Shown here piece after piece: positions 2,167-42,589 of a stretch of DNA of 64,000 nucleotides (positions within the stretch are counted from its first letter, which is position 1; each line of letters opens with the position of its first letter). Made by a program: the position numbers and the translations under genes. The DNA comes from a virus: the IMG/VR virus record IMGVR_UViG_3300023179_000054, positions 1 through 64,000 of that record, one strand, 5' to 3'. Under the pieces are notes generated by a model. That model saw only the letters and a list, made by a program, of their open reading frames with translations. It had not been told where the DNA came from and ran no database searches.

Positions 2167-2174
2167 CTATTTAG
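2167..2174 (-). promoter_or_regulatory. CTAAATAG late-promoter-like motif
   Basis: CTAAATAG on the minus strand overlaps the stop of the halogenase-like gene and opens the 170-base gap before the secreted peptidase. It matches the CTAAATA element used as late promoter in marine T4-like phages, and the same string recurs in other gaps of this window. Confidence 0.35.
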
Positions 2175-3444
2175 TCACCGAGTATTCTCCATTTACAAAT
2201 TTTTCAGGATCAACATTTAAACCTTCAAGATATTGTCTTATGACAGCATTAGGATGTGGTACATAATGTGGATAATCACCTTTACCATTTTTATAATTAA
2301 CATATTGATTACAAAAATCTATCCAATCTGGTTTTTTTAATAAATATTTTATAGATTTATTTTTCGTTATCTTCCAAAAATCACTATACATCATATTACC
2401 AACATAGTTTAATACAATAAGATCAAATAATCTTGAAGAAAGACCGCTATGTAAAGTATTGAGCATTTCTTCAAAAGGTAAATTAACGTTCGTGAATTTA
2501 TTTATAAGTAGATCACTTTCATATTCATGTGTAATGTTATATAATTTTAATAATATATGTCTTGTGAAATAAAAATAATTATGTAATGGTATACCTTGGA
2601 TAGGTTCATAGAAATATAATTTATTACCCATACTTATTATACGGCCGTTGATTGGTTTTTTCACACTATAAGAAGGCCAATATAGTTCTTTAACATTATC
2701 TATTGGTATATCTTTATTTAATTCTTTAAAATGTTTTAAAGCCTCTTCTTTATCGGTTATATCTTTATTATACAGATATCCAAACGCTTTTCTGTTTCTA
2801 GTGTTTATACCAAATTGCCATCCATTTTTATGGAAAAGCACTTCTGTATATGGGTGATTATATTGTTGATGATGTTGGAATAATAATACTGAATTAACAG
2901 TCTCAAACTCTGGAAAATTATACTTACCTGAATTTAATTCTTCTTTTGTCGGAAACCCTCTACAATCAAATAGATAGTCAAATGAATATGTAGCATTTTC
3001 TCCATGCGCTGTAGCAACATTATCGGTTTGAGAGATATGTTTAATATTGTCATGTATTTCTAGTAATCTGTTATCATATATTTCATTAATCCTTTTAAAG
3101 ACAAAATCACTAAATTTTTCGCTACTCATATGCGCGCCTGTACCTACATAATTAATATCAAACATAGAATTTTCATTATTTTCCCATGAATGTCTGGCAC
3201 CTATTCTCAGTATTAGGTCGATTTGCTCATGTTCTTTGATACTATGTTTTAATTTTAAAGCAGTAGATAAACCTCTAAATATACCTGGGCTTAAACTTTC
3301 ACCTATCGACATTTTAGGAATATCAGGATTACTAATAATAGATACTCTTATATCTCTAGAATCCAAGAATTCATTTTCTACACCGAACATAACGGCCGCA
3401 CAAACTGCGGCCGCCGAACCCGTTCCAATAATTCCAATTTTCAT
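2167..3444 (-). CDS. Divergent tryptophan-halogenase-like flavoprotein
   Basis: A 425-residue FAD-binding protein of the tryptophan-halogenase superfamily. The N-terminal dinucleotide motif is G7-T-G9-S-A-A, an altered GxGxxG. It keeps the SIGESLSP segment (halogenase GEAT region), GWQFGI in the position of the WxWxIP motif, and an FYEPIQG segment equivalent to IEPLESNG. Where halogenases carry the catalytic lysine, the best alignment here places arginine or a non-lysine residue, so classic chlorination is doubtful. It follows a small secreted protein gene with a TGATG overlap. It could be a monooxygenase or a halogenase with altered chemistry. Confidence 0.7.
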   Translation of the reverse strand: MKIGIIGTGSAAAVCAAVMFGVENEFLDSRDIRVSIISNPDIPKMSIGESLSPGIFRGLSTALKLKHSIKEHEQIDLILRIGARHSWENNENSMFDINYVGTGAHMSSEKFSDFVFKRINEIYDNRLLEIHDNIKHISQTDNVATAHGENATYSFDYLFDCRGFPTKEELNSGKYNFPEFETVNSVLLFQHHQQYNHPYTEVLFHKNGWQFGINTRNRKAFGYLYNKDITDKEEALKHFKELNKDIPIDNVKELYWPSYSVKKPINGRIISMGNKLYFYEPIQGIPLHNYFYFTRHILLKLYNITHEYESDLLINKFTNVNLPFEEMLNTLHSGLSSRLFDLIVLNYVGNMMYSDFWKITKNKSIKYLLKKPDWIDFCNQYVNYKNGKGDYPHYVPHPNAVIRQYLEGLNVDPEKFVNGEYSVTK

Positions 3445-4922: not shown

Positions 4923-5831
4923 TTATTCCAAGAATTCCTTAAATGTCAAAGGAACTCTGTTTTCCGTTATTGCGGTTTGGAATTCTTCGCCGCCATTAAG
5001 GACTTTAATTTTAGAAAAATGCCTCACAAGACCATTATATATTTTTTTAATTGGTTCATTATCAAGCATTTTTACCGTAAGACCTTTATGGGAAACTTTC
5101 AGTTTCATTCTCGTCTGTATTGGTCTAATGATTGCTGTTTTATCGGATGGAACTAAGGCCCACTGGAAAATGGTTCTCATCTGTCTCGGTTTTGTTTCTA
5201 CACGAAAACAATTCATCTGTAAATCTTTTGTCATTCTTGAAGCAAGAGCATCCAACATTTCTTCTGGTGTATTGGCCTTAGCAAGCGCCTTTTCTGCCAA
5301 CTCTTTTCTACACTCGCTGGATTTTCTCCACATATCCTGTGTGTCGGTTATACCAGTTTGAAATCCAGCCCATGGAAAATCTACACCATGATTTGTTCTG
5401 ACAATAGTTTCGCTGGTAGGTATTGAGCGGATTCTGGATTTATATTCACCTTTACCACCATCTTTTCTTGCTGCTTCAATAACTAATAACTTTTGTGGAG
5501 TTGCGAGAAAGATGTATCCTGTCATCTGCTGTTGAACGATATAATTGGCAGCATCTCTTTGTTTCATATGGAGTGCTTTATAGATTGTATCACCGTCTTT
5601 TTTATTTGTTTCAGCATTTAATGATGGAGTTAGGCTGGTAGATATGATAACGAGACCGTCATGGTTCATACCTTCTTGGTATTTAATTTCATGGTCATAC
5701 ATAACAAGTATTTCACCGACCTTATCATTTTCCTCATCTCGAAAAGATACATCGGAAACATAATCTTGGTCTCTATTTTTTGCTAAAATCCAGCCTTTGT
5801 CTTCGAAATACTTTGCTGCTATGATACACAT
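4923..5831 (-). CDS. Ntn-hydrolase-like protein with N-terminal Cys
   Basis: A 302-residue protein starting Met-Cys, followed by GWILAKNRDQDY. Removal of Met would expose Cys2 as an N-terminal nucleophile, as in C45 acyltransferases, bile-salt hydrolases and the TANGO2/NRDE family, whose NRD(E/Y) motif is matched here by NRDQ. A GLVIISTSLTP strand and an RTNH segment near residue 146 fit the NTN fold. It probably hydrolyses an amide bond; the substrate is unknown. The gene lies between two early promoter units. Confidence 0.6.
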   Translation of the reverse strand: MCIIAAKYFEDKGWILAKNRDQDYVSDVSFRDEENDKVGEILVMYDHEIKYQEGMNHDGLVIISTSLTPSLNAETNKKDGDTIYKALHMKQRDAANYIVQQQMTGYIFLATPQKLLVIEAARKDGGKGEYKSRIRSIPTSETIVRTNHGVDFPWAGFQTGITDTQDMWRKSSECRKELAEKALAKANTPEEMLDALASRMTKDLQMNCFRVETKPRQMRTIFQWALVPSDKTAIIRPIQTRMKLKVSHKGLTVKMLDNEPIKKIYNGLVRHFSKIKVLNGGEEFQTAITENRVPLTFKEFLE

Positions 5832-6398: not shown

Positions 6399-7052
6399 TT
6401 AAGGAATTCTAATCCATTCTCTTTCTTGAGGAGAACTTTCGACTTTGGTACAGCTAGGAAAACTTACAGATAATCTTTTTGTAAGTGATTTCACCTCATG
6501 GCAGTAATGAGCCGGCGCATAACAAACATCACCAGGTTCCATTATTATATCAAATATAGGTTCTTCATCAAGGTGTTTTATTTTAAATTCTCTAGGATAA
6601 TCCTTAATATTCCACACTCTCATATTTGATATACCTTCAACCTGAATCATTAAATTATGTGAGTAATCTAGATGAATTCCAAAACCGGAGTTTTGTTCTT
6701 CTGTCAAATCGAAATATATATGTGCATCTGTAGGAAAACCAGTTATTACATCTAATTCTTCACATATAGTATTAATTTTCTCATTAACTCTTGATGCGTC
6801 TGTGATATGACAATGATATTTTTTTATTATTTCTTTGATGATAGAAGGTGGAAAACAATTTATATCTGATACCCAGGCTTGGTAAGGCCATTCGTATATT
6901 TCTTTAAAATTAGCTCTAAATCTATCTTGATTATTAAAAGGTCTTAGATTAAACAAATTTTCCAATTCTTTCCATGAGAAAATATCCTTGACGGCGTTTC
7001 TCGCATAAAAAGGTTTTAGTTCTTTAATTCTTTCTTTAATATTTTCCAACAT
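6399..7052 (-). CDS. JmjC/cupin-type 2-oxoglutarate oxygenase
   Basis: A 217-residue protein of the cupin_4/JmjC hydroxylase group, related to ribosomal oxygenases. The iron triad is H127-x-D129 in GIHLDYSH and a distal histidine in APAHYCHEV (H185, alternatively H182). The MRVWNI strand between them fits the double-stranded beta helix. It starts directly after the FkbM-like gene and ends the modification cluster 6.4-9.5 kb. Likely protein or small-molecule hydroxylase. Confidence 0.7.
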   Translation of the reverse strand: MLENIKERIKELKPFYARNAVKDIFSWKELENLFNLRPFNNQDRFRANFKEIYEWPYQAWVSDINCFPPSIIKEIIKKYHCHITDASRVNEKINTICEELDVITGFPTDAHIYFDLTEEQNSGFGIHLDYSHNLMIQVEGISNMRVWNIKDYPREFKIKHLDEEPIFDIIMEPGDVCYAPAHYCHEVKSLTKRLSVSFPSCTKVESSPQEREWIRIP

Positions 7053-7856
7053 TTAGATATATTCCCCTACTCCTGGCGGATGACCGACATGCCAGTAATG
7101 GTCGTAAATCAACCAATACCGTGGAGGATTGTAAAGGTATTCTGGTGTCTTATCATCGGAGAAATTATTACCAGTCAAATCTTTTCTTACAAAGAAGGCA
7201 TTAGCACCTGTAACGTTAGTTCCAACAAGATCATAACCTTTTCTATCAGCAAGTTCGGTTATGGCCTTTAGACTTGAACCCATGTAATCTGTACCATCCC
7301 ATCTATATTCGGTGTTATAAACAGGAACTCTAACTATATTGGCAGGCCACTTGGCATTATACTCGATACAGATAACTTTTGGTTTAATCTCTAAAGCATC
7401 AAGTAAGTGAATATCCATACCATCAATATCGATAGAAAGAAAATCTAGGTCTTGTGGTACTCCAAGAGAGTTAAAGTTTCTGTTGATATTATCTTTTGTA
7501 ATTTGACCAATAGCAACTCTTAATTTATCTTTATTGATAAAAGACTTAAAGTTATTCTCTATTGTGGAGGCCTTTGAAACATCGGACTCGAACCAATAAC
7601 CAACCCAGTTCTTGTGTAGAAGGTAATGCGTATTACACTCAATACCATTTTCCAAACCAATTTCAGCAAATGTACCGCTGTATATTCCAAGGCGATAAAA
7701 GATTTCTTCGATAATTCCATCTTCGTCACCTTGACTATAGACCTTATTACCATATGGTTCAAGGCGTTTAGAGTTTTCTTGAAACCAATAAGATTTTACA
7801 GCATCGATTTCTTGACGGGCCAAATAAGCATTATTTCTTTGTAGATAATCACTCAT
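7053..7856 (-). CDS. FkbM-like methyltransferase family protein
   Basis: A 267-residue protein with a GTFAEIGLENGIECNTHYLL segment, the glycine-rich loop typical of FkbM-related SAM methyltransferases, preceded by the SQGDEDGIIEEIF motif common to this subgroup. An acidic DIDGMD follows near residue 143. AAGGTGA precedes the ATG. It lies between two oxygenases and the sulfation genes, so a joint role in modifying a sugar or metabolite is plausible. The methylated group is usually a sugar hydroxyl in FkbM relatives. Confidence 0.6.
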   Translation of the reverse strand: MSDYLQRNNAYLARQEIDAVKSYWFQENSKRLEPYGNKVYSQGDEDGIIEEIFYRLGIYSGTFAEIGLENGIECNTHYLLHKNWVGYWFESDVSKASTIENNFKSFINKDKLRVAIGQITKDNINRNFNSLGVPQDLDFLSIDIDGMDIHLLDALEIKPKVICIEYNAKWPANIVRVPVYNTEYRWDGTDYMGSSLKAITELADRKGYDLVGTNVTGANAFFVRKDLTGNNFSDDKTPEYLYNPPRYWLIYDHYWHVGHPPGVGEYI

Positions 7857-7868
7857 AATATCACCTTT

Positions 7869-8369
7869 TTATTTTAAAAATGTTAAATTCTCGTTTTTTA
7901 CAAGTATACCTAAACTTGGAACAATTCTTCTTTTAGAACCTATTACAGGATTGGTTTTATGCAATTGTTGTGATGCTATACATAACCAACAACCTTTTTC
8001 TTCTATATCAACTATATTATCATCGATAATAGGATCACCACCAATTTCCGGTTTAGAAATCATAATGTTAAATCTTATATGTGTATATCCAGGAAGAGTA
8101 GAATCTGTATGTGGATGAACAAAAGCACCTTCGAAATTACATCCTATAAAATTACCAAATCTAGGTTCTGGTTTCCATTCATGTATACCAAATTTATGAG
8201 CCAATTTTATTTTTTCTTGTTCTATTACTTCATCTTGAACATGAGACATAAAAAAACGACCAGGCCCGGAACTATTCGGTTTAAACATATTGAAATTATC
8301 ATCAACGAATTTTAATACATAATTTCTGAAATTATCATCAACAGCATTTTCTATTTTGTAAGGATACAT
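7869..8369 (-). CDS. 2OG-Fe(II) oxygenase
   Basis: A 166-residue protein with a complete iron triad: H87-T-D89 in HPHTDST, and H137 in QQLHKTN, with R147/R148 for 2-oxoglutarate binding. Family resemblance is to small phage aspartyl/prolyl-hydroxylase-like enzymes. AAGGA lies upstream of the ATG, and the start overlaps the kinase gene by 19 bases. Substrate unknown. Confidence 0.75.
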   Translation of the reverse strand: MYPYKIENAVDDNFRNYVLKFVDDNFNMFKPNSSGPGRFFMSHVQDEVIEQEKIKLAHKFGIHEWKPEPRFGNFIGCNFEGAFVHPHTDSTLPGYTHIRFNIMISKPEIGGDPIIDDNIVDIEEKGCWLCIASQQLHKTNPVIGSKRRIVPSLGILVKNENLTFLK

Positions 8370-8767
8370 ATCAATTCCTTTATGATATTATCTTCCTGAT
8401 TATAGTCGGTTATTCTATAGTCGTATTTAGAAGGCACCTCAAACAACTTGTTAGTATCTTCAAATCTACCTTCTTTAATAGTATCTATCCATACTGTGAT
8501 ATCAGCATCAAATATTTTTCTTGTTTCTTCTGTAGGGCAAACGAAATCACACACAGCGGTAAAATGAGATGACTTAGCAAAGTTTGCCATTCTATATGCT
8601 TGTCTCAATCTACCTTTATCAGAGAAATCCCAATCATCAAAAATTGTTCTTATGAAATCTGCGTTATATATATTTATAGAAAAAGGACAAGATTTAACTA
8701 ATTTCTCAGTAAATGTGGTCTTACCGGCCCCAGGTAAACCCATTACTAAGATTTTAAGTTTTTCCAT
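8351..8767 (-). CDS. APS-kinase-like P-loop kinase
   Basis: A 138-residue protein with Walker A GLPGAGKT (residues 10-17) and a CysC-like middle: an R-x-AYRMANF segment, CDFVCPTEETR (the APS-kinase F-(I/V)-(S/C)-P-x2-x2-R motif) and an acidic V-W-I-D-T strand. APS kinase makes PAPS, the sulfate donor. The gene overlaps the sulfotransferase by 22 bases, which supports a shared sulfation role. It is shorter than cellular CysC (about 200), so another small-metabolite kinase remains possible. Confidence 0.7.
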   Translation of the reverse strand: MEKLKILVMGLPGAGKTTFTEKLVKSCPFSINIYNADFIRTIFDDWDFSDKGRLRQAYRMANFAKSSHFTAVCDFVCPTEETRKIFDADITVWIDTIKEGRFEDTNKLFEVPSKYDYRITDYNQEDNIIKELICILTK

Positions 8768-9531
8768 ATTTCAAGTCCACTATATTTTTCCCAAATGTCA
8801 GGTGGCAGTATGGTTTTTCTGTTTGGCGGAGTAATTATTTTTTTAACATCATGTAGCCCTGGTGTATTGACACTTTTATCAAATATTTCAGAACCAATAA
8901 TATTTTTTATGTCGTTAAAATTATGCTCAAAATAAGGCTCTTCAATATGTTCATATATCATTCTCATTACAGGTTCTGGATGAAGCACCAGAATATCATA
9001 TTCAATTATTAAACAGTTTTTAAAATTAGGATTAGAATAAATCAACTCTTTCAATCCATTATAAGGATTTTTTATAAGATTTTCCATATATTGTTCACAT
9101 CTATTATATATAGATGAACTAGATTGACTAGAAGAATAATTAGGTTTCGAATACAAATTCTTTCTGGATAAATTTTCCAGAGAATCTAATATCCAACATA
9201 TATCTCTAACGGTTATTATCATTTTATGATCAGGATATAACCTGTTTAACAGTTCTTTACGAGCCGTCCATGTTCTATTGTGGTCGAAATACACATTTTC
9301 ATTACCATCATATAAAGTTTCTAAGAATGACCTTAGAATTTCATCCATTTTATCCCCAAAAAAACAACTTTTATAATTTCCTGGGCCATTTATACTTTCA
9401 ATAATATTATCAAAAATATGCCTAACAGGAGATGTTATATCAGCTCTAAATCTTGGATTCTGATTAAGTATTGCGGATAATAGAGTGCTTCCGGACCTTG
9501 GCAGTCCGGAAGTAAATACTATCTTTTTCAA
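8746..9531 (-). CDS. PAPS-dependent sulfotransferase
   Basis: A 261-residue protein with the 5'-phosphosulfate-binding loop GLPRSGSTLL at residues 9-18, the hallmark of P-loop sulfotransferases. A KMIITVRD strand follows near residue 100, as in the 3'-phosphate-binding region. The start is TTG overlapping the RlpA-like stop (TTGA), with GGAGAG upstream. Adjacent to an APS-kinase-like gene, it probably moves sulfate from PAPS to a sugar, lipid or small metabolite. Confidence 0.8.
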   Translation of the reverse strand: MKKIVFTSGLPRSGSTLLSAILNQNPRFRADITSPVRHIFDNIIESINGPGNYKSCFFGDKMDEILRSFLETLYDGNENVYFDHNRTWTARKELLNRLYPDHKMIITVRDICWILDSLENLSRKNLYSKPNYSSSQSSSSIYNRCEQYMENLIKNPYNGLKELIYSNPNFKNCLIIEYDILVLHPEPVMRMIYEHIEEPYFEHNFNDIKNIIGSEIFDKSVNTPGLHDVKKIITPPNRKTILPPDIWEKYSGLEIWKNLKS

Positions 9532-10010
9532 TTTAATCTCTCCACGGTTACCGATGATGTCGATCCCATACCGATAGCCCGAGCAGCACCGTAAGACAAA
9601 TCAAGATGACGGCCGCGGACAAAGGGTCCTCTATCATTAACCGTGACATTTACGCAACCTCTGTGACAGACACGAAGGACTGTGCCAAATGGATATGTCC
9701 GGTGGGCGCATGTGTGAGCATTAGGGTTGAAGACGGCACCCGATGCGGTGTGCCTCGAAAGTCGTTCACCATGCCCGTAGAAAGAAGCAACCATGCGACT
9801 CCCTCCATGATCATGATTACCCCAACTAGCAGTCCAATCATTAGTATCGTCGCTTTGAACGCTGCGGCCATGTTTACCTCTTGTCACTTTCTGCTGTTGC
9901 TGTGGTTGTTGCCCGCCAAAGGCACCATCGAAAAAATCAGATAACGGATCGGCAGCGGCCGAAGTTGTTAGTGTAATGAAAATGGCCGCAGCCGATAGAT
10001 ACTTATTCAT
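9528..10010 (-). CDS. Secreted RlpA-like double-psi beta-barrel protein
   Basis: A 160-residue precursor: signal peptide (cleavage near AAA-D, residue 20), a Gln-rich linker, and a C-terminal RlpA-like domain (about residues 74-158) with ASFYGHG, HRTYPFGT and NDRGPF. RlpA cleaves naked peptidoglycan strands at septa. The catalytic Asp (D126 in NDRGPF) is present, but the Glu of the TASGE motif is Ala92 here, so lytic activity may be lost or the protein may only bind peptidoglycan. AAGGA precedes the ATG. Confidence 0.78.
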   Translation of the reverse strand: MNKYLSAAAIFITLTTSAAADPLSDFFDGAFGGQQPQQQQKVTRGKHGRSVQSDDTNDWTASWGNHDHGGSRMVASFYGHGERLSRHTASGAVFNPNAHTCAHRTYPFGTVLRVCHRGCVNVTVNDRGPFVRGRHLDLSYGAARAIGMGSTSSVTVERLN

Positions 10011-10026: not shown

Positions 10027-10103
10027 TGGTCGGGGTAGCAGGATTTGAACCTACGACATCTTGCTCCCAAAGCAAGCACTCTACCAGTCTGAGCTACACC
10101 CCG
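10027..10103 (-). tRNA. tRNA-Pro (UGG)
   Basis: A 77-base cloverleaf with acceptor CGGGGTG/TACCCCG-type pairing, anticodon stem CTTGC/GCAAG around a seven-base loop with TGG, TTCAAAT T-loop and an encoded CCA. It lies between small early genes and the RlpA-like gene. Confidence 0.93.
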
Positions 10104-11365: not shown

Positions 11366-11442
11366 TGGTGATTCCGTGTGGACTCGAACCACAAACCTAC
11401 TGCTTAGAAGGCAGTTGCTCTATCCGGTTGAGCTACGGAACC
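11366..11442 (-). tRNA. tRNA-Arg (UCU)
   Basis: A 77-base cloverleaf with acceptor GGTTCCG pairing CGGAATC (one G-U), anticodon loop CTTCTAA (TCT), TTCGAGT T-loop and encoded CCA. The end of the upstream protein gene runs into it and stops in the anticodon loop. UCU reads AGA, common in AT-rich phage genes. Confidence 0.92.
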
Positions 11443-16106: not shown

Positions 16107-16288
16107 TATGCCACTTCCTTAAAATGCTGTTGTAATTCTGGAGATAATTTCTCTAATATGTGTCCTGGAATACCAACTCTTACTATATTGGCCAATTCTA
16201 CGATGTTATTAGGAGTAATAATATTTTCATCAGGAACAAATTCATATAAACGAGCTGGTGAATGTTTATGTTTATTATCCTTCTTCAT
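16106..16288 (-). CDS. Small hypothetical protein
   Basis: A 60-residue protein beginning with a basic stretch (KKDNKHKH). AAAGGAG lies upstream at a long spacing of about 11. The start overlaps the halogenase stop by 14 bases, and the stop overlaps the GT32 start. Not recognised. Confidence 0.55.
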   Translation of the reverse strand: MKKDNKHKHSPARLYEFVPDENIITPNNIVELANIVRVGIPGHILEKLSPELQQHFKEVA

Positions 16289-17846
16289 AATATATTTTCT
16301 CCTTTAGAATATCAATATGTTCTGGTTCATTCTTAACTAATTCGGCCCAGTAGTCTCTTTTTTTATTCAATCTATTTGCTGCTTTTAAAGCATTTTTATA
16401 AAAATCATTATTGAGTGAAAAAGTATCTAGCAACTGTCTATCTGTTGGGAAAAAATTTGTTCCTGTTGCAACAGCATTTATTCCCGAATCATCAAATTGG
16501 TAATTATTAAATTTCATTTCCGAAACATTTTTAAACGCATCAACATGTGAGACAACATTTAAATTACACATAAATTCTGAATATTCTCTTCTACCTACAT
16601 CTCTCCAATATTCTGTATCATCTCGGTGTGATAAAGCATAATGTAAGGCCACAAATTCCGAAAATCCTTTAAATTGTGTCCTACATGCCAAACTATAAGC
16701 ATCTTTATCAAACTGGCTAACATAACCTTCTGGTTCTCTATCTAATACTCTAATAAGTTTAACTAAAAACATATGGACGCTATAAAGACCATTACTTTCT
16801 AATGGTTCAATAAAACCACCCGAAAGGCCGATAGGTACAACGTTTTTATACCAAAGTCTTTCATAACAACCTACTCTAAACTTTAATTTACGAAAGTTGA
16901 GTTCTCCGTTAAGTAGACCTTTGGATTGTAAATGATCTTTAAATTCTTCCAGAGCGACATCATCATCAATATACTTATCTGAATAAACGTATCCGGTTCC
17001 CATTCTACTCCAAACAGGAGTATTCCACACCCACCCATTACCTATAGCATGACAATCGGTGTATGTTACGAGTTGCTTTCTTTTATCTGTATATGGAACT
17101 TGGACGGCCCATGCCGAATTATTTGGTAGAATTTTTGTTAGTGAAATAAAAGGAACATCCAACTTACTATATAAAACCGATCTGAAACCGGTACAATCAA
17201 TATATAAATCAGCGATAACTTCTTCACCATTATCTAATATAAGTTTTTTAATACCATCTTCGTCTGTATGAATATCTTTAACCTCAGCAAGGATATTTTT
17301 AACACCTTTTGGCATAGCATAATGTGATTTCAACCATAAAGCAAACTGTACCGCATTAAAATGATAAGCACAATCATTATCAAAACTATAGTTAGGAAGT
17401 ATATTATTTTTATCAGAAATTTTATTTTGATTAACAAGTGCCATAATAGGATAAACACAATCAGCATAATCGCTAATAGGTGTTTCCGGATAAAACATCT
17501 TTTTTAAATACCAGTCATTTTTATTATTAAGATTGCCATCAACATTAGTGCCACCAAAAGGATAATGGAATGAACCAGCACCTTTTTTATAGAAATCTGT
17601 AAATCTAATGGAGAGTTTATATGTGGCATCACAATGCTTCATGAAATCTTCATCTTTAATCTCTAACAGTCGTAGCCATTCGTTAATGAAACCTAAGGTA
17701 GCTTCACCAACACCAACTGTAGGAATATTAGGACTTTCTATGAGTGTGATATCTCGACCTTTAAGACGGGCAATAAGAGTAGCAGCAGTCATCCATCCAG
17801 CAGAACCTCCACCAACGATAACAATCTTTTTAATCTGCTTACTCAT
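16275..17846 (-). CDS. FAD-dependent tryptophan halogenase
   Basis: A 523-residue flavin-dependent halogenase of the PrnA/RebH family, which uses FADH2, oxygen and halide to halogenate an electron-rich ring. Visible are GxGxxG (G12-G-G-S-A-G17), GEAT (48-51), the catalytic lysine K77 in ATYKLSI (PrnA K79), the WxWxIP-like motif W272-V-W-N-T-P277, and GFIEPLESNGL. The start at 17846 has GAGG upstream and an ATGA overlap with gp43. A reduced-flavin supply protein is not evident. Marine phage VirX1 is a precedent for halogenation of varied substrates. Confidence 0.88.
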   Translation of the reverse strand: MSKQIKKIVIVGGGSAGWMTAATLIARLKGRDITLIESPNIPTVGVGEATLGFINEWLRLLEIKDEDFMKHCDATYKLSIRFTDFYKKGAGSFHYPFGGTNVDGNLNNKNDWYLKKMFYPETPISDYADCVYPIMALVNQNKISDKNNILPNYSFDNDCAYHFNAVQFALWLKSHYAMPKGVKNILAEVKDIHTDEDGIKKLILDNGEEVIADLYIDCTGFRSVLYSKLDVPFISLTKILPNNSAWAVQVPYTDKRKQLVTYTDCHAIGNGWVWNTPVWSRMGTGYVYSDKYIDDDVALEEFKDHLQSKGLLNGELNFRKLKFRVGCYERLWYKNVVPIGLSGGFIEPLESNGLYSVHMFLVKLIRVLDREPEGYVSQFDKDAYSLACRTQFKGFSEFVALHYALSHRDDTEYWRDVGRREYSEFMCNLNVVSHVDAFKNVSEMKFNNYQFDDSGINAVATGTNFFPTDRQLLDTFSLNNDFYKNALKAANRLNKKRDYWAELVKNEPEHIDILKEKIYYEEG

Positions 17847-20401
17847 GAAAAGAAATCCTCTAAACTTGAGACCTTCTCGGTCTTCCACCCAATACTATCA
17901 AGGATTATTTCGAGAGGGTAAAGAAAGGCCTTCTCGAACTGTGTATCATAATCGATATATTTAGTTAAGGCAAATTCTTCTGGTATGCCGCCTTGAGGGA
18001 AAGAAATAACATTAGATTGAATAGTATTTGGTTCTTTGAGGAAGATAAACTTCAGTTTTTCACCATTCTGAATTAGAGGATACTTTGATGTTAGTCCATT
18101 AGTATTAAGGAAATGGTTATACATGAGAGCACCTCTAACGTGAATGGGAGTACCGCTGCCATAGATGGATCGTTTGTCAGCATACTTAACCAGACCATTA
18201 AGACCACGGGGGAAAGAAATATCAGCAAGTGGTAAAGTTTCGAACTCTTGACGAAATTCTTGTATAAATTGCTGAATAGCATTTTCATCTTTGTCAAAAA
18301 TAACATCAACAGCCTCTCTTAGTTTGTCTCTACATGCTGATGGTGTCGAGGACTTAACCATCTCAAGGCCCATAACTTTCTTTTTAGGTTGAGCATATTG
18401 CACACCTTCTGAGTTATGAACGTTTAGAATATATCTTTTCTTGGCAGTCCAGATTGCCTTATCTGCCAAGACCTCTCGCTTCATTACTATCTTTTGCTGG
18501 AAGACGTTAGTATATTCCCCAAGTTCTCGGCAAGCATTATCAATAACAGGTTGAATTTTATTCTCACAGACCTTATCAAGGAAGGAGATGATGCCTGATG
18601 AATTCCTAACTGCACCGTCTGCGTTAATAGTTTTGTCCACAAGAGGGCCAAGGCGTAGATACACCGAGTCTGTATCGACCGCAATAACATAATCATCCTC
18701 CGTTTTTAATATTTTGTTGAGATACTTATTAATCTCTCCTTCGATCCACCGTATTGACAATTGGCCAGTAGTCGTGACCGCAATCGCATTCCGTAGGTCG
18801 AAGAACCGAAAATACTTAGAACCCAGTGCCCCGTATAACGAGTTGAGCGATACTTTTTTAGAGAGTTGCAAGTTGTTATACCTTGCAATTCGGTTTTTGA
18901 TTTCTTTTCTTTTTTCTTTATCACCTTTTTCTTTTTCATATTCCTGTTCCGCTTCTAACATCTTTTTCTTATAAACTTTACGGTCAGCGAACATCTTCTC
19001 GACCATTTCAGGCATAAACCCTTGTTTATCACGGCGATAGAATTGTCCGTTGGCGGTTAAACAAACATCTTTATTTTTTAACCCAGATAGATCCAACTTA
19101 CGGGCCAATAGGCGATCAACACTAACACCGTCTGAAATAATGCTACGCATAGCATCATCGTAATCAACAGGCTCAATAATTGTTTCAGGAGATATATTGG
19201 ATCCCATAATGACACTAGGATACTCACTATTAACGTCAAAAGAAGCAACCCAATTATGAAATCCATTAATGGTATCCTTAACATAGGCACCCACATATGC
19301 GGCCTCCTTTTCGTGGCGTTCAATTGGTGGAACAACTACATTCTTACCTTTGAGATGATGGAAACAAATAACGTCCCACATTCTAACTTGTGCGAACACA
19401 TCCTCATAATTACATTTGTTATCATAAGATAAGGTAAGGGCCAATTCAATCAACTTATTTTTATCATCAATCTTGTCAACAAGGTCAACGTCTTTAATGT
19501 TATAGTCGATGAACTTTTGATAGTCCTCCTTATACAAGTTCAACAAAGAACCGTATTCTTCATAGGATAGTTTGCGTTCACCAAGTTCAACGTGTGCGAT
19601 ACTATCCAACTTATAGGACTCTTGTGATTTTCCGTCTTTAGCATATCGCTGGTACAAATCAAGCAAATCAAGTGTGGCAATACCTAAAATAGAATAGGAC
19701 TTAATCTTTCTATTCATACCAAGGTCAACCATCTTATCGTTGATTACACCCCACGGAGAAAGTTTCTTGGCCTCATTCTCTCCCATTAGTTTGCGAATAC
19801 GATTGACCAAATATGGTATATCGAAGTTCTGGACATTCCAACCTGTAATGATGTCAGGATATTCTGATTGCCACCAACCAAGAAACTTACGAATAAGATC
19901 AAACTCATCCGCACATTTCATATACGTAACATCATCTCTGCTATTAGAATAATCACCACAACCAAGTGTAGTGAATTGTCCGTCCATTTTAATTGTGATT
20001 GCTGTTAGTGGGCCGTTAGCATGTTCTGGTTCAGGGAATCCACCTTCTGGCGGTTCACCAACCTCGATATCGATGTTGGCCACTTTGATAAGGGACATAT
20101 CCCAATCAACAACACCTTTAAACTCATCGGCAATAAAGCAATATTGATAACGAGTATTACCATAAACTTTAAAGTTCTCAACATTATCATATTGAGAAAC
20201 GAAATCCCGGGCATCTCTAATGTTGCCAGGTTTTACCTTACCAACATAGTCGCCATGAATAGTTTTATATTTTGTGGGGGTCTGTGAAGGCACGAAAAGA
20301 GAAGGGTGATACTCGACTTTATGTCGCACCCTTCTCCCTTCTTCAACACCTCGATATAGAATTCTTCCGCCCCATACCTCAACGTTTGTGTAAAATTTCA
20401 T
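17843..20401 (-). CDS. 43: DNA polymerase gp43 (family B)
   Basis: An 852-residue replicative polymerase with 3'-5' exonuclease. The exonuclease motifs are D111-I-E113, WNVQNFDIPYL, and the YNIKDVDLV motif. The polymerase motifs are DVNSEYPS (A), the NSLYGALG helix (B) and VDTDSVYL (C), with a KKRY segment near the thumb. T4 gp43 is 898 residues. The ATG overlaps the stop of the upstream small gene by one base. Confidence 0.96.
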   Translation of the reverse strand: MKFYTNVEVWGGRILYRGVEEGRRVRHKVEYHPSLFVPSQTPTKYKTIHGDYVGKVKPGNIRDARDFVSQYDNVENFKVYGNTRYQYCFIADEFKGVVDWDMSLIKVANIDIEVGEPPEGGFPEPEHANGPLTAITIKMDGQFTTLGCGDYSNSRDDVTYMKCADEFDLIRKFLGWWQSEYPDIITGWNVQNFDIPYLVNRIRKLMGENEAKKLSPWGVINDKMVDLGMNRKIKSYSILGIATLDLLDLYQRYAKDGKSQESYKLDSIAHVELGERKLSYEEYGSLLNLYKEDYQKFIDYNIKDVDLVDKIDDKNKLIELALTLSYDNKCNYEDVFAQVRMWDVICFHHLKGKNVVVPPIERHEKEAAYVGAYVKDTINGFHNWVASFDVNSEYPSVIMGSNISPETIIEPVDYDDAMRSIISDGVSVDRLLARKLDLSGLKNKDVCLTANGQFYRRDKQGFMPEMVEKMFADRKVYKKKMLEAEQEYEKEKGDKEKRKEIKNRIARYNNLQLSKKVSLNSLYGALGSKYFRFFDLRNAIAVTTTGQLSIRWIEGEINKYLNKILKTEDDYVIAVDTDSVYLRLGPLVDKTINADGAVRNSSGIISFLDKVCENKIQPVIDNACRELGEYTNVFQQKIVMKREVLADKAIWTAKKRYILNVHNSEGVQYAQPKKKVMGLEMVKSSTPSACRDKLREAVDVIFDKDENAIQQFIQEFRQEFETLPLADISFPRGLNGLVKYADKRSIYGSGTPIHVRGALMYNHFLNTNGLTSKYPLIQNGEKLKFIFLKEPNTIQSNVISFPQGGIPEEFALTKYIDYDTQFEKAFLYPLEIILDSIGWKTEKVSSLEDFFS

Positions 20402-22456: not shown

Positions 22457-23632
22457 ATGAAAAAACTTGCTATTATCGGTCGAGGAACAGCTGGATCTTT
22501 GGCCGCTGCACATTTCCTTAGACATACTGATTGGGAAATAGACTGGTATTTTGATAATGATATTAAACCTCAGGCCGTTGGTGAAGGTTCTAATTTAATT
22601 CTTCCTAATTTTTTAAAAAATTGTTTGAATTTTGAACACCATGATTTATCAAAAATTGATGGTTCTTTTAAAGCATCTATATATAAAGAAGGTTGGGGAA
22701 AAGGTCAAGGATTTCATCATACTTTTGCTCCGCCACTTTTATCATACCATTTTAATGCTAACAAATTACAAGATTATATATTATCTTTAGTTAGAAGTAA
22801 TCCAAAACTAACAATCAAAGAGCAAAATATAATTCATGATAATATAGACTCCGATTTTATTTTAGATAGTTCAGGTCGTCCAAAATCTTACGAAGAATTT
22901 CATTTATCAAAATATATTCCGGTAAATTCAGTCCATGTAAACCAGTGTTATTGGGAATATCCAAGATTTCAATATACTTTAACAATTGCCAGACCATATG
23001 GGTGGGTCTTTGGCATACCTTTACAAAATAGGTGTAGTATTGGATATATGTATAATAATAACATAAACACTCTCGAAGAAGTTAAAGAAGATATAAAACA
23101 TATTTTCACTCAGTTTAACCTTGTACCTAGCGACCAAACAAATACTTTTAGTTTTAAAAATTATTATAGGAAACAAAATTATAGCGAAAGAATATGTTAT
23201 AATGGTAATGCATCTTTTTTCTTAGAACCTATGGAAGCAACATCAATAGGAATGATGCAAGTTATAAATAAATGGTCTCTTGACTTATTTAACGATATCT
23301 CAAATATTGATATTATCAATTATAGATATTATACAGTTAACAAAGAAATTGAATCTGTAATTATGCTACATTATTTTGCCGGATCTATTTACGATACAGA
23401 TTTTTGGAAATTTGCCAAAGAGAGAGGTGAAAAGTGTATGTTGGATTCTTTAACACAAAAAAAATATAAACTTGATAGATCATTTCATGAAATGTTAAAT
23501 GATGTTGATAATAATAAAAGGTTTGAAGGATTTGGAACTTGGAATAAAGAATCATTTAAGCAAAATATAGTAGGTCTTGATGTTAGAGAAAATCTTGATA
23601 ACTTAATTAATAATACAATTATAGGAGAATAA
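22457..23632 (+). CDS. Tryptophan-halogenase-like flavoprotein
   Basis: A 391-residue flavoprotein on the plus strand. It has the dinucleotide motif G8-R-G10-T-A-G13, VGEGSN (halogenase GEAT region), a conserved lysine K72 in GSFKASI aligned with the PrnA catalytic lysine, WVFGIP near residue 182 as the WxWxIP motif, and FLEPMEATSIG as the C-terminal binding motif. It is shorter than PrnA-type enzymes and nearer to the small halogenase-like phage proteins. It leads the only plus-strand block, followed by the spanin pair. Confidence 0.8.
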   Translation: MKKLAIIGRGTAGSLAAAHFLRHTDWEIDWYFDNDIKPQAVGEGSNLILPNFLKNCLNFEHHDLSKIDGSFKASIYKEGWGKGQGFHHTFAPPLLSYHFNANKLQDYILSLVRSNPKLTIKEQNIIHDNIDSDFILDSSGRPKSYEEFHLSKYIPVNSVHVNQCYWEYPRFQYTLTIARPYGWVFGIPLQNRCSIGYMYNNNINTLEEVKEDIKHIFTQFNLVPSDQTNTFSFKNYYRKQNYSERICYNGNASFFLEPMEATSIGMMQVINKWSLDLFNDISNIDIINYRYYTVNKEIESVIMLHYFAGSIYDTDFWKFAKERGEKCMLDSLTQKKYKLDRSFHEMLNDVDNNKRFEGFGTWNKESFKQNIVGLDVRENLDNLINNTIIGE

Positions 23633-26703: not shown

Positions 26704-28146
26704 TTATTCTCCGTTCTTTAGATATATATGATTGCCTATAACAGCACAATCTAAACTTGTAGTTTTAAGTAATTCTACTACCGTTTCAGGATGACCTGCT
26801 ATAGGTTTGCCCGCTAAGTTTAAACTGGTATTTAATAACACAGGACATCCAGTTAATTTATAAAATTCCTCCAACAGTTTTCTAAAAATAGGATTTTTAT
26901 CACCAACCGTCTGCACTCTACAAGTTCCGTCTATATGAGTTATTGAAGGTAGTATATCAGATTTTAATCGACATGTAAAGAGCATATATTCGTCTTCCCA
27001 TTCCATATCGAAATAATCTTTTGCATATTCTACCAAAACGGAGGCACCAAAAGGTCTGTAGTTTTCCCTATTTTTTATTCTATTAATTATTTCTTTACCA
27101 TTAGGAATTCTTGGGTCCATAAGTATAGAACGATTTCCTAATGCCCTTGGGCCTATTTCTCCATGACCTTGATACCAGGCCACAGTTTGTCCTTCTGATA
27201 ATTTTTTAGCAATAAGTGATATAGTTTCATCTGTAGGAATATCGGAAGGAGAAATATCATTTTGCATATATGGAAATTGCGACATATCAAACATAGAAAG
27301 ATTATGTTTTTGTCTCAAATATTCAAGACATCCTAAACTCAAACCTTCATCACAAGAATGTGGTGCAATATATAAATTTTTAAAATGTTTTTTCAAAGTG
27401 GTATTCCACACTACATTTTGTGCTACACCTCCGGAATAACCAATAACATCATCTGGAGAGGCGAATTTTGAGAAAAGTTCTAATAATAATTCTTCAATTC
27501 TAAGGTGAATAGTCCTCAACCAATTGATTTTGGTGAGTTCGGAAACAAGATTATCACCTTTATAATTTATCCAACTATTATAGTTAAATATGTCGTTTAT
27601 ATTATACATATCATATTTTCTTAAAATATTCAAATATTCTTGATCAATAGTTCCATAAGATTGCAATCCCATCGCCTTACTGGCAACATCTACATTCAGA
27701 AGAGATTTAATATTTAAAGTTGTTCCGGCATTCATCATTCCCCATCCTATAGATCCGTTTTCTTTATTACCATGACTTATAAATTTCCATTTATTTTTTT
27801 TATCGAAAACAGACCATGTTTTATGATCACCTATACCATCTATAACAAAAGACACATCAGGAATTTTACCTATTAATGGATAAACACTTAAAGCATGTGC
27901 ATAATGATGATGTATGATTTGACAATTTAATTCTAATAAAGGACCATTACATGTTGCAATATCATCCATTTCATTAAATGAAATGTTCCAAAGGTCTTTA
28001 AGTTCATTTTCAAAATCACTAAAGGTTTTGAAACTGAACCTTTTTATATCTTTTGTTCTTTCAAATTTATGAAATCTTACAAATTTACCATCATAATAGG
28101 AGACACTATGATCATGATGAGTTAAACTAATACCTAATAATTTCAT
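26704..28146 (-). CDS. NodU/CmcH-type carbamoyltransferase
   Basis: A 480-residue protein of the carbamoyltransferase family that adds a carbamoyl group to a sugar or other alcohol using carbamoyl phosphate and ATP. It begins LLGISLTHHDHS, has the HHHYAHAL metal-binding block near residue 79, FVIDGIGDH, the CDEGLSLG and GEIGPRALGNRSIL motifs and ENYRPFGASV. Typical NodU proteins are 550-600 residues, so this is compact. Such genes occur in cyanophages. Target could be a glycan made by the locus at 33-44 kb. Confidence 0.87.
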   Translation of the reverse strand: MKLLGISLTHHDHSVSYYDGKFVRFHKFERTKDIKRFSFKTFSDFENELKDLWNISFNEMDDIATCNGPLLELNCQIIHHHYAHALSVYPLIGKIPDVSFVIDGIGDHKTWSVFDKKNKWKFISHGNKENGSIGWGMMNAGTTLNIKSLLNVDVASKAMGLQSYGTIDQEYLNILRKYDMYNINDIFNYNSWINYKGDNLVSELTKINWLRTIHLRIEELLLELFSKFASPDDVIGYSGGVAQNVVWNTTLKKHFKNLYIAPHSCDEGLSLGCLEYLRQKHNLSMFDMSQFPYMQNDISPSDIPTDETISLIAKKLSEGQTVAWYQGHGEIGPRALGNRSILMDPRIPNGKEIINRIKNRENYRPFGASVLVEYAKDYFDMEWEDEYMLFTCRLKSDILPSITHIDGTCRVQTVGDKNPIFRKLLEEFYKLTGCPVLLNTSLNLAGKPIAGHPETVVELLKTTSLDCAVIGNHIYLKNGE

Positions 28147-33215: not shown

Positions 33216-33440
33216 ATCCATATTTCCGAAGTCATTATTCAGGCGAGAAGCAGGAACGGAACCTCCACCACCGCTTGCGGATGATGAAGGACCGGAAGTA
33301 GGAAAGTTATGATGACTGGCATTAAAGGATGTAGAACCTTCACTCCAACCAGGATTTTGCCATGAATAGGCCGGTATATCATGTACCGGTTCTCCACTTA
33401 AAGAATGAAACTGTGCCAGTATAATCAAAGTCTTTATCAT
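33213..33440 (-). CDS. Small Ser/Gly-rich protein
   Basis: A 75-residue protein with a short hydrophobic start (MIKTLIILAQF) and a Ser, Gly and Pro-rich low-complexity body (SSSASGGGGSVP). It overlaps the glycosyltransferase stop as ATGA. It may be exported. Not recognised. Confidence 0.5.
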   Translation of the reverse strand: MIKTLIILAQFHSLSGEPVHDIPAYSWQNPGWSEGSTSFNASHHNFPTSGPSSSASGGGGSVPASRLNNDFGNMD

Positions 33441-34429
33441 ACTAAATTATTCACAAATTGGTCAGTTGCGGATTCCCATGAAAATTGTTTTGCTCTTGCT
33501 ACGGCATCTTCTCTTTTTAGTTTAGATGCCTTTACAATTGCTTCTTCATAGTGATAACTATCGGTTAGAATACCAGATTTACCATCTTCAATAATATATC
33601 GGTTCACCTCGTTGTCTAATCCAGCAACAGGTAATCCACATGCCATGGCCTCTAACACAACAAGTCCAAATGTGTCTGTTAGAGAAGGCCAAGCAAACAC
33701 ATCATATGCTGGTAAAAGGTCGGCAATCTCTTGTTGTGTTTTACGACCGAGAAAATAAGCATCTGTGTATCTTGCTTTGTATTCATCTAATTGTGGGCCA
33801 TCACCAATAACATATTTACTGATGTTAGGATTGCTTATCTCAAGGTATTCAATTAGATTCTTTTCTGCTGATACCCTACCGACATAAATGGCACGGATAG
33901 TACCTGTGTTGGTCCAAGGTGATGGTTTGAATAGGTCTGTATCAACTCCACGGGACCATATCTTTACGTTCCGTATACCCATTTTAGAACAGTAATCAAC
34001 CATGGCGGGGGTAGGTACCATAACACAATCGCTGTTTCTATGGAACCAACGAAAATACCTACCAGTAATTCTTGGTGGTATATAAGCGTGTTCATATAGG
34101 TATTCTGGATATCGAGTATGAAAGGATGTTGTGTAATGTCTTTTATATTTTTTACAATAATATCTTGCGGCAAGGCCTATACTTCCTTCTGTTGCTATGT
34201 GTATGTGTTCGGCATTCTTCACATATTCATCAGCAAGTCCCATAGGCATAATCGGCATATAAATGCCAGTTGATGGTTGTAATGGTACAGTTAGTTTGAA
34301 GAGGCCGGGGTGAACCACCTTGACCTCAAACCCTCGTTTCTCAAGGTGTTTAATAGTTGTCTTTAATGTCGTGACAACTCCGTTTATTTGGGGTTCCCAC
34401 GCATCTGTAAAAATAGTAATGTTACTCAT
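33437..34429 (-). CDS. GT4-family glycosyltransferase (MgtA/PimB-like)
   Basis: A 330-residue GT-B glycosyltransferase. It has the N-terminal FTDAWEPQINGVVTTL loop typical of the alpha-mannosyl/glucosyl MgtA-SqdX group, TSFHTRYPEYL, and the donor-site block AWPSLTDTFGLVVLEAMACGLPV with the EX7E pair. It overlaps the LpxH-like gene by ATGA. Such pairs occur in bacterial genomes, so both may have been acquired together. Acceptor likely a lipid or surface glycan. Confidence 0.83.
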   Translation of the reverse strand: MSNITIFTDAWEPQINGVVTTLKTTIKHLEKRGFEVKVVHPGLFKLTVPLQPSTGIYMPIMPMGLADEYVKNAEHIHIATEGSIGLAARYYCKKYKRHYTTSFHTRYPEYLYEHAYIPPRITGRYFRWFHRNSDCVMVPTPAMVDYCSKMGIRNVKIWSRGVDTDLFKPSPWTNTGTIRAIYVGRVSAEKNLIEYLEISNPNISKYVIGDGPQLDEYKARYTDAYFLGRKTQQEIADLLPAYDVFAWPSLTDTFGLVVLEAMACGLPVAGLDNEVNRYIIEDGKSGILTDSYHYEEAIVKASKLKREDAVARAKQFSWESATDQFVNNLV

Positions 34430-35166
34430 CGTCTTATTATCTCAAACTTTCCATTATGGTGTTCAACAATAGCGGTACAGGATTCTACCCAGTCGCCGCA
34501 GTTTAAGTATTCAATATTATCAAAAGAACATATATTAGCATGATGAATATGGCCGCAAACCACCCCATCGACGCATCTCCTTCTGGCAGCATCAGCAACT
34601 ACCTTTTCGTAATCACCGATAAAGTTTACCGCTTCTTTGACACTCGATTTTGCCCATGCTGAGAGGGAAAAACCACGAATGCCTAATATATGGTATATAT
34701 TCTGCAAATACCTATTAAGGTCTATCATCCTATCATACAACCATCCACCTATTAAGGCAAGCCATTTGGCGTTCATCGTAACAAGGTCAAACTGGTCTCC
34801 ATGAATAATAAGGTATTTCTTACCGTTTTCTCCATAGTGTATAGCATCATTCACCAGTTTTATACTACCCATTTCTATTCCATTATACTCTCTAAGGAAT
34901 TCATCATGATTACCTGTAACGTATATAACCGGAATATCTTTCTTAGATTGTTTTAGGAAGAATTGAATAACGTTATTGTGCGCCTGAGGCCAATAGACTT
35001 TCTTTCTCATCATCCATCCGTCTATGATATCTCCAATCAAGTAATATCTGTCGGCTTCGGTTTCTTTGAGGAACTCTAAGAGTTTTTCTGCGTTTGAATA
35101 TTTGGTGCCAAGATGAACATCGGATATAAAGATACTTCTATACTTTTTCTTATCTTTACTTTTCAA
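34426..35166 (-). CDS. LpxH-like UDP-2,3-diacylglucosamine diphosphatase family phosphoesterase
   Basis: A 246-residue metallophosphoesterase with SDVHLGTK, LIGDIIDGW, VTGNHDEF, IHGDQFD and CGHIHHANI, the order and loops of the LpxH family, which cleaves UDP-2,3-diacylglucosamine in lipid A synthesis. No lipid A gene accompanies it except the overlapping glycosyltransferase, so the substrate may be another nucleotide-linked sugar or lipid. A GATAAATA late-like motif lies 27 bases upstream. Confidence 0.78.
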   Translation of the reverse strand: MKSKDKKKYRSIFISDVHLGTKYSNAEKLLEFLKETEADRYYLIGDIIDGWMMRKKVYWPQAHNNVIQFFLKQSKKDIPVIYVTGNHDEFLREYNGIEMGSIKLVNDAIHYGENGKKYLIIHGDQFDLVTMNAKWLALIGGWLYDRMIDLNRYLQNIYHILGIRGFSLSAWAKSSVKEAVNFIGDYEKVVADAARRRCVDGVVCGHIHHANICSFDNIEYLNCGDWVESCTAIVEHHNGKFEIIRR

Positions 35167-35193
35167 GGCCGCTCCTTTGGTTAGAAGGCCTAT

Positions 35194-35201
35194 TATTTAT
35201 C
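35194..35201 (-). promoter_or_regulatory. GATAAATA late-promoter-like motif
   Basis: GATAAATA on the minus strand, close to T4 TATAAATA, 27 bases before the LpxH-like ATG in the 55-base gap after GalE. It marks a possible new transcription unit inside the glycan locus. Confidence 0.35.
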
Positions 35202-35221
35202 GCACCGCAACATTAACCGTT

Positions 35222-36169
35222 TTATGACGATTTCATACTTTCCATAATATCGTCTAACGTGTATAGAGGTGTATAATCTAATAGTTCTTTTAATTTGGTA
35301 TTATCAGCGACCAGATAAGGAACGTCTCCTTTCCTTTTGCCTGTATAAACTATAGTCATTTCACCATTATGAATGATTTGATTTGCCTTGTCAACCACTT
35401 CTTTTACGGAGTATCCGTTAGATGAACCGATATTGACGGCAAAGTTTGCTTTCTCTTGTTTTTCGAGATAACGATAGGCATGTATATGGGCACGGCAAAT
35501 ATCTACCACATGGACATAATCACGAACACAAGTTCCATCATCAGTTTGGTAATCATCACCATATATTGTTGCTGTTTTATTTTTAGCAAGTATAGGAATT
35601 AAATGTGTTTCTGGGTCATGTTCTTCATATAGATTTGCTTTTACATTACGACCACAGGCATTAAAGTATCTAAGTCTTGCCACATTTATATCATCAAGGC
35701 CTTCTAATATGGTTTCACACATAGCCTTTGATTTACCATAAACTGATGTAGGATTTACTGGTTGAGTTTCAAGTATATTACCACCAAAGATATAATCTCT
35801 ACTACAATCACCATAAACTGCGGCTGTGGAAGAAAAGATAAAGTTCTTTACTCCGTATTTCTTTGCTGCGGAGATTGCTCCAAGTGTTGCCCCGATGTTG
35901 TTTCGGTAATATGAGAATGGGTTTCGTTCACCTTCTTCCACAGAAATGTATGCGGCAAAGTGGAATATGCAGTCGATACGCCCCTTTGTGGAATAAAAGG
36001 TATCGCTGACAAGATCAGCATGGATAAAATCATCATAAAGATGCCTAAGATGCGGTTTAACATCTTTATCTACTCCTATTATATGGCAGTCAGGATAAAA
36101 TGTGCCAAGTTCATGACACATATGGCTGCCGATATAACCGTTACAACCTGTGACTACGAATGTTTTCAT
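35222..36169 (-). CDS. galE: UDP-glucose 4-epimerase-like (GalE)
   Basis: A 315-residue extended short-chain dehydrogenase. NAD-binding GCNGYIG is at residues 8-14; FHFAAYISV, SSTAAVYG, and catalytic YGKSK (Y-x3-K) follow, then RYFNACG and GTCVRDYVHV, which are GalE hallmarks. It interconverts UDP-Glc and UDP-Gal or N-acetyl forms, supplying donors for the neighbouring transferases. TAATG overlap with the oxygenase upstream. Confidence 0.87.
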   Translation of the reverse strand: MKTFVVTGCNGYIGSHMCHELGTFYPDCHIIGVDKDVKPHLRHLYDDFIHADLVSDTFYSTKGRIDCIFHFAAYISVEEGERNPFSYYRNNIGATLGAISAAKKYGVKNFIFSSTAAVYGDCSRDYIFGGNILETQPVNPTSVYGKSKAMCETILEGLDDINVARLRYFNACGRNVKANLYEEHDPETHLIPILAKNKTATIYGDDYQTDDGTCVRDYVHVVDICRAHIHAYRYLEKQEKANFAVNIGSSNGYSVKEVVDKANQIIHNGEMTIVYTGKRKGDVPYLVADNTKLKELLDYTPLYTLDDIMESMKSS

Positions 36170-36804
36170 TATGAAACCTTATATTTAATATTACCAGAAA
36201 CACTTATTCTATATTCATCACTTGTATAAAATGGACATACAGAATGATTTAAAACACTAGGAAAAAACAAACCTTTACCTTCATAACTTTTATCGGTAAA
36301 TATAGGATAATTACGAATCATACCTAAAATATTGCTATAATGAAAAACAAAAGATGATGTTAAATTTTTTTTCTCATTCATTTCATTATATACTTTTTTT
36401 TCTTCTATTACATCATATGGAATTTTTATCCATATAACAAATGAAAAAATTCCAGAATGGTCATGTAAAGGATTAAATTCATGTTTTTTTTGAAAGTTGA
36501 CCCAGCAATTTTGTAAAATAAGAGGAACACCAGATGTCAGTATATTGTCACAATATTCTAAGGAACCAAAATTATAAAAATATTTTTCAACTAAAGGATA
36601 TATAATATTTCCAATATGTTCTCGACATTCAATTAATTTATATTCTTTATCAATATGTCCAGCTAAACTTTTATTACATTTAATAGATTTATCAAAATTA
36701 TTTTGTATTCCATTAACTTCATTTTTTATTGGTAATAACTGTTCTTCATCTAATTCAAATTGTAAAAATCCTAAATTAGGAAATGTAAAAGGAGTTATAT
36801 TCAT
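36169..36804 (-). CDS. 2OG-Fe(II) oxygenase (2OG-FeII_Oxy_5 type), copy A
   Basis: A 211-residue protein with CWVNFQKKHEFNPLHDHSG (HxH) and an FFPSVLNHSVCPFYTSDEYRISVSGN C-terminal half. It shares most blocks with the gene at 37362, and the two paralogues flank a methyltransferase. They may hydroxylate a sugar or lipid of the glycan locus. Confidence 0.75.
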   Translation of the reverse strand: MNITPFTFPNLGFLQFELDEEQLLPIKNEVNGIQNNFDKSIKCNKSLAGHIDKEYKLIECREHIGNIIYPLVEKYFYNFGSLEYCDNILTSGVPLILQNCWVNFQKKHEFNPLHDHSGIFSFVIWIKIPYDVIEEKKVYNEMNEKKNLTSSFVFHYSNILGMIRNYPIFTDKSYEGKGLFFPSVLNHSVCPFYTSDEYRISVSGNIKYKVS

Positions 36805-37352: not shown

Positions 37353-37361
37353 GTTATATCC

Positions 37362-42587: not shown

Positions 42588-42589
42588 CT

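Follow-up and report, generated by a model that had tools for sequence, protein, structure and literature searches.

The window, by which we mean the whole stretch of 64,000 nucleotides that was analysed, is part of a 92,407-bp IMG/VR virus record, itself a fragment. Two open reading frames overlap on its minus strand, at exactly the positions given in an earlier sequence-only reading: a sulfotransferase gene, here called ST (8746..9531, 261 aa, TTG start; identified from the ORF list and PF13469), and a gene for a lidless APS-kinase-like P-loop kinase, here called K (8351..8767, 138 aa, ATG start). Given this strand, ST is the upstream and K the downstream gene, and by their ORF coordinates the end of ST and the start of K share 22 bp (8746..8767). 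In relatives the overlap is 22 bp (L005, L006), 25 bp (L007) or 17 bp (L008). The conserved flank upstream of ST is a DPBB/RlpA-like gene (9528..10010, minus strand; PF03330, 70.4 bits), which is found in the window, in L005-L009 and in L125. Its stop is overlapped by the TTG start of ST by 4 bases, and since the same overlap is kept in L005-L009, this start is credible. Comparison of the window with L005 gave dN/dS values of about 0.12 for K and about 0.2 for ST, and both genes are therefore under purifying selection.

Two oxygenases and an FkbM-like protein had also been reported as neighbours of the pair. One oxygenase was recovered, a JmjC/cupin-type protein (6399..7052, minus strand; PF08007 (JmjC_2), 45.8 bits), which must be regarded as flank and not as a member of the pair, because it is kept in L114, L115 and L154, where ST and K are missing. 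The gene at 7869..8369 (minus strand), which lies downstream and overlaps K by 19 bp, shows by eye an H-x-D...H pattern (2OG-oxygenase-like), but its Pfam search gave no convincing match; it matches phrog_13746 (unknown) and is an accessory gene missing from L007 and L008. An FkbM match is present at 7053-7856, but at 16.8 bits it is sub-threshold (Pfam cut-off 22.7). The assignment to a T4-like phage fits the DNA polymerase, RecA/UvsX-like, gp41-type helicase, clamp loader and gp46/gp47-like ORFs recognised by eye. Genes for tRNA-Pro(TGG) (10027-10103, minus strand) and tRNA-Arg(TCT) (11366-11442, minus strand) lie just upstream of the cassette. A TANGO2/AAT-like protein (4923-5831, minus strand; PF05742 and PF03417, both sub-threshold) is conserved beside the cassette in relatives.

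Judged from its sequence, ST is very probably the sulfotransferase that it had been taken for: it scored 55.5 bits against PF13469 (cut-off 27; 1.2e-14) over profile positions 2-214 of 216, and both PAPS-binding motifs are kept. Residues R12, S13, G14, T16, R109 and S117 were invariant in an alignment of eight diverse phage STs. The predicted 5'-phosphosulfate-binding loop is the segment GLPRSGSTL with its invariant core (residues 9-17; 9481..9507, minus strand), and the predicted 3'-phosphate-binding motif runs from R109 to S117 (9181..9207, minus strand), by correspondence with the motifs that have these roles in PAPS-dependent sulfotransferases. In a PDB search the best matches were protein-tyrosine sulfotransferases (1e-9) with TPST1 on top, and the sole NCBIfam match was a 27-residue P-loop stretch of NoeE.

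K had been described as a CysC-like P-loop kinase, an assignment that a better match to, for example, polynucleotide kinase would have called into question. The window protein scored 20.1 bits against PF01583, 1 bit short of the cut-off (21.1), six of its relatives (L001, L002, L008, L010, L015 and L032) pass it with 24-38 bits, and the profile matches stop near position 85-96 of 152. A single-sequence PDB search returned an APS kinase at 2e-5 and the polynucleotide kinase 1ly1 at 0.23. With a family profile of 36 relatives the APS kinase 2yvu came first (7.7e-13), followed by a run of APS kinases broken only by two weak P-loop-only matches. Similarly, phrog_10255 ('kinase') was matched at 5.6e-24 and phrog_505 (polynucleotide kinase) at 0.0029, and the best NCBIfam match was PRK05541, a CysC-like subfamily. 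Foldseek ranks 1-41 of the AF2 model (pLDDT 95.2) were all APS kinases or bifunctional forms, with TM values (query-normalised) of about 0.7-0.84 to the solved APS kinases. As modelled, K is thus an APS-kinase-fold protein with APS kinases as its nearest structural neighbours. Polynucleotide kinase, adenylate kinase and GTPase were rejected as identities of K, their matches being P-loop-only and weaker than those of APS kinase; CoaE and NadR kinase were absent from the profile and fold matches listed. A Campylobacter-type phosphoramidate kinase was considered as a further possible reading of K.

When K was aligned with CysC of E. coli and a CysNC of the SAR86 order, the site of the missing APS-kinase lid (DPKGLYKKARxGELRN) fell between R101 and F102 of K (8464..8465, minus strand). 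Compared with E. coli CysC, the protein lacks DPKGLYKKARAGELRN (approximately 16 aa) plus a few flanking residues, and the lid is deleted in all family members examined. In characterised APS kinases this lid closes over the nucleotides. The P-loop is found at residues 10-17 (GLPGAGKT; 8717..8740, minus strand; from alignments), and the elements GLPG[AS]GK, FSxxxR, R and VDT align with E. coli CysC. The substitutions are NAD/NGDxxR for DGDNVR, Q for the N of NIRR, FxxxxxxFExP for F......YEAP, and FVCP or FVAP for FISP, the serine of the last motif being replaced by cysteine or alanine in the family; the K of L185 retains NKDLGFSIEDR, which is nearly CysC-like. The P-loop and the APS-binding half of APS kinase are thus kept with conservative changes. 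Because the kinase is short, its activity had been named as the weak point. The protein is indeed short, but a random truncation does not account for it: the kinase parts are consistently about 140 aa across the members of a large family, and we therefore regard K as representing a lidless APS-kinase-like family and not a truncation accident. In L010 (5992-6615) and L015 (6001-6618) K is fused to a DUF2061 membrane domain (PF09834 confirmed); by similarity, it is fused to or followed by DUF2061 in L024, L036 and L039, and DUF2061 is a separate gene in L014, L016 and L066.

Relatives of the T4-like clade were fetched with the gp41-like helicase as query. ST and K were both present in 8 contigs (the window, L005, L006=L101, L102, L108, L152, L125 and L128), both absent from 18 loci, each with at least 7.5 kb of downstream sequence, and in no case was only one of them found. 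If the contigs were independent, the 8/26 coincidence would have p=6e-7, a value that overstates the evidence for linkage because several contigs are near-identical. L114, L115 and L154 retain the order RlpA-FkbM-JmjC-TANGO2-like but have no ST, no K and no small gene downstream of them. At the same site L125/L128 and L179-L181 carry the reversed order RlpA-K-ST with a K/ST overlap of 4 bp, and the ST of this arrangement is only 23-25% identical to that of the window; in L125 a 2OG oxygenase follows. Within the T4-like clade ST and K were gained and lost together, and the fact that the same site can hold either of two arrangements, whose STs differ, argues for functional coupling.

Whether related phages keep the pair together, a question raised in the sequence-only reading, depends on the gene from which one starts. 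Seen from ST they do: K was present at 75 of 84 loci, usually in the order ST then K with an overlap of 4 bp. Where an ORF could be called, K stood alone at 30 loci and was fused to an HxGH nucleotidyltransferase (NTase) at 31, six of these Ks lying 2.8-6.5 kb away. Clustering of these STs left just 6 groups at 60% identity, of which 5 include K, and 19 groups at 90% identity, of which 16 do; the effective sample size is therefore low. Searching the viral contigs with the single window ST gave only 2 relatives; the wider set needed an ST alignment. Seen from K, however, only 9-10 of 48 records, many of them fragments, contain a PF13469 ST over the cut-off, and K more often adjoins, or is fused to, the NTase than it shares a record with such an ST. 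At many ST loci a tail-fibre-like protein with a C-terminal Lcl_C domain (PF07603; in small-phage loci L244:2762-3412, L185:4658-5566 and L212:2547-3212) is encoded two genes upstream of ST, and because of this position the tail fibre is a candidate acceptor of sulfation at those loci; no Lcl_C tail-fibre context was seen at the cassette of the window. In L313 (402-2132) a Sulfotransfer_1 ST is directly followed by a K-NTase fusion amid surface-polysaccharide-like genes; the contig is labelled as a Euryarchaeota MAG and is, we guess, misbinned. In L015 (3283-5049) an ST domain is N-terminal in a 588-aa protein, whose C-terminal part is the longer one and which adjoins glycan genes and the K-DUF2061 fusion.

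The NTase is a protein of about 130 aa with the pattern GRWQPWHxGH...YGRxVGY...ISATKIR. It was found at no fewer than 64 of 83 K loci, at 57 as a separate nearby gene (mostly adjacent) and at 7 fused to K; the kinase-then-NTase fusions (L001, L002, L244, L307) are about 260 aa in total. Its profile was closest in the PDB to archaeal NMN adenylyltransferases (1f9a, 1e-4), it matched PF01467 near the cut-off, and its resemblance to ATP sulfurylase is a local motif only. A single-sequence search of the PDB gave designed-protein noise only, and with the AF2 model (pLDDT 82) Foldseek returned PPAT, PanC, NadR, ATP sulfurylase and NMNAT alike (E 0.005-0.05). By analogy, the kinase-NTase order, which is that of animal PAPS synthetase, and the pairing with ST suggest that the NTase forms APS. 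A search of the 92-kb record for an APS-forming partner, which covered the NTase, found none, and ST and K by themselves are therefore probably unable to produce PAPS starting from sulfate. The proposal that the pair could make PAPS and transfer sulfate is thus partly supported, by the families and the coupling.

A search of genome contigs found K also in SAR86 and SAR11 genomes, among them the chromosome CP097973.1. At 63 of 78 cellular loci the NTase was the next gene, and at 9 SAR86-type loci a PF13469 ST was the previous one; the SAR86 ST directly upstream of K is a different type of ST (364 aa). Among 24 K-bearing genomes, full-length PF01583 was found only in G058, G059 and G065, whereas ATP sulfurylase (PF01747) was confined to G062 and strong matches to CysD/CysH were confined to G058 and G059; other PF01507 matches were weak, mostly 20-29 bits in ORFs of about 525 aa, and were taken as GuaA-like. 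PF13469 STs occurred in 20 of these genomes, CoaE in 21 and PF01467 (CoaD/NadD-like) proteins in all 24. K was the sole PF01583 match in 9 of 10 SAR11 genomes searched. Canonical sulfate activation is thus mostly absent from the K-bearing SAR86 and SAR11 genomes. Of 151 SAR86-order genomes, 76 contained both K and ST, 4 contained K only, 11 ST only and 60 neither of them (odds ratio 104; Fisher p=1.3e-25, inflated by shared ancestry and genome incompleteness), and a canonical full-length APS kinase was present in a single genome, G149, which belongs to the ST-only class. In SAR86, K tracks ST, not the canonical sulfate-assimilation genes.

Taking these observations together, we think it likely that ST and K constitute a two-gene sulfation cassette, with K as the source of PAPS and ST as the enzyme that spends it on sulfate transfer. 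The computation shows family and fold, conserved residues, the linkage of the genes, their joint gain and loss and their co-occurrence in cells; the two catalytic activities, the origin of the APS, the acceptor and any advantage for the phage are what we infer. K would act as a minimal APS kinase that has kept the P-loop and the APS-binding half and lost the lid, phosphorylating the 3'-OH of adenosine 5'-phosphosulfate (APS) to yield PAPS, and ST, co-translated with it, would use the PAPS at once and pass the sulfate to an acceptor, most obviously a glycan or a tyrosine of a protein. The APS would be supplied by host enzymes in the phage of the window, and in many relatives by the NTase beside or fused to K, from ATP and sulfate. 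For the window ST a glycan is as possible an acceptor as a tail fibre, because the window encodes an alpha-1,3-fucosyltransferase (41107-41991, minus strand), a NodU-like carbamoyltransferase (26704-28146, minus strand) and many sugar-nucleotide-type genes. The carbamoyltransferase, the fucosyltransferase and ST with its NoeE P-loop match resemble a glycan-decoration set, and at 33437-44241 (minus strand) a long run of glycosyltransferase, nucleotide-sugar epimerase and dehydrogenase-like genes was recognised by eye. The window also encodes three tryptophan-halogenase-like flavoproteins (PF04820) at 2167-3444 (minus strand), 16275-17888 (minus strand; full-length, 341 bits) and 22457-23632 (plus strand). 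More tentatively, and with somewhat less than even confidence, we propose that K and NTase together form a hitherto unrecognised minimal PAPS synthetase (about 260 aa; ATP + sulfate to APS to PAPS), non-orthologous to ATP sulfurylase. It would supply the STs of SAR86 and SAR11, in which cysDNC/sat are mostly missing, and phages would have it in common with them, in self-sufficient cassettes for sulfation that often lie directly behind Lcl_C tail-fibre genes.

The chemistry could differ from sulfation altogether: lidless K, though descended from APS kinase, might phosphorylate some other adenylylated compound made by the NTase, and the ST-fold enzyme might transfer a non-sulfate group from that 3'-phosphoadenosine donor. 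The family-wide deletion of the lid, the replaced FISP serine and an NTase that is nearer in sequence to NMN adenylyltransferases than to ATP sulfurylase, and whose model singles out no one member of the superfamily, are compatible with such a donor, but K retains the APS-binding half in its residues, ST keeps both PAPS-binding motifs, and the STs found together with K in SAR86 have strong PF13469 matches, reaching 1e-51; we consider this explanation unlikely. Quite improbable, in our view, is that K (elsewhere with the NTase) is an auxiliary enzyme raising the PAPS pool of the host, be it for sulfate assimilation or for general use, and that ST is an uncoupled neighbour. The overlapping genes, the strict co-gain and co-loss, the reversed-order cassette with another ST and the distribution of K in SAR86 all speak against it, even if most K records, many of them fragments, are without a PF13469 ST; it also counts in its favour that cysC-type genes have been discussed as auxiliary metabolic genes of phages. 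That K and NTase have nothing to do with sulfate and form a nucleotide-cofactor pair (NMNAT with a kinase, as in NadR, or PPAT with dephospho-CoA kinase) is highly improbable despite the archaeal NMNATs among the best NTase profile matches and PPAT and NadR among its top Foldseek matches, since K matches APS kinases and not CoaE or NadR kinase, the frequencies of CoaE and PF01467 proteins in K-bearing genomes leave no gap to fill, so that CoA or NAD synthesis needs no K-NTase, and the linkage to ST would stay unexplained.

If the sulfation cassette functions as proposed, the conserved donor-making partner makes phage STs testable, with sulfate that may be placed on the tail fibres of the phage itself or on the host surface. 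Nearly all of the SAR86 and SAR11 genomes searched had no APS-kinase-like protein other than K. If K works, some of the most abundant bacteria of the sea have a route of sulfate activation that pathway databases do not contain.

Neither APS kinases nor phage sulfotransferases are new in themselves. PF13469-type STs like that of the window occur in the Synechococcus phages S-SKS1 and S-SRM01 and in OM43 phages, and their function in phages is explicitly called unexplained (PMC10580990). In contrast to the window, no coupled APS-kinase-like gene is annotated beside the ST of S-SKS1 or mentioned for the OM43 phages (PMC10580990). In open-licence PMC papers we found no description of a phage ST paired with an APS kinase, nor in open-licence papers one of the lidless kinase family with its NTase partner as a SAR86/SAR11 route. 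The pair recurs in many environmental phages. In the excerpts of PMC5069961 used here, SAR11 is stated to lack assimilatory sulfate reduction, Table 3 gives cysC for most SAR11 strains, with no cysD/H and for the most part no cysN, cysQ is found in all seven strains listed, and neither a function of this cysC nor the NTase partner is discussed. This orphan 'cysC' resembles K in its occurrence, and we infer that the two are the same; since AprBA handles APS according to the same excerpts, it could be an alternative APS source in SAR11.

Compared with the Sulfotransfer_3/TPST family, the window ST shares PF13469, the PAPS-binding motifs and TPST1 as best PDB match, but it belongs to a phage clade, and tyrosine specificity has no support. 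With APS kinase (CysC; PF01583; the kinase domain of PAPSS) K shares the P-loop fold, the motifs of the first half and the 3'-kinase half of the active site; it differs in being about 140 instead of about 200 aa long, in lacking the DPKGLYKKAR lid, and in having FVCP or FVAP for FISP and Q for the N of NIRR. The K-NTase fusions share the kinase-then-nucleotidyltransferase order of animal PAPS synthetase, in which APS kinase is N-terminal to ATP sulfurylase, whereas they are only about 260 aa long and their predicted APS-forming part is an HxGH domain of about 130 aa nearest in sequence to NMNAT.
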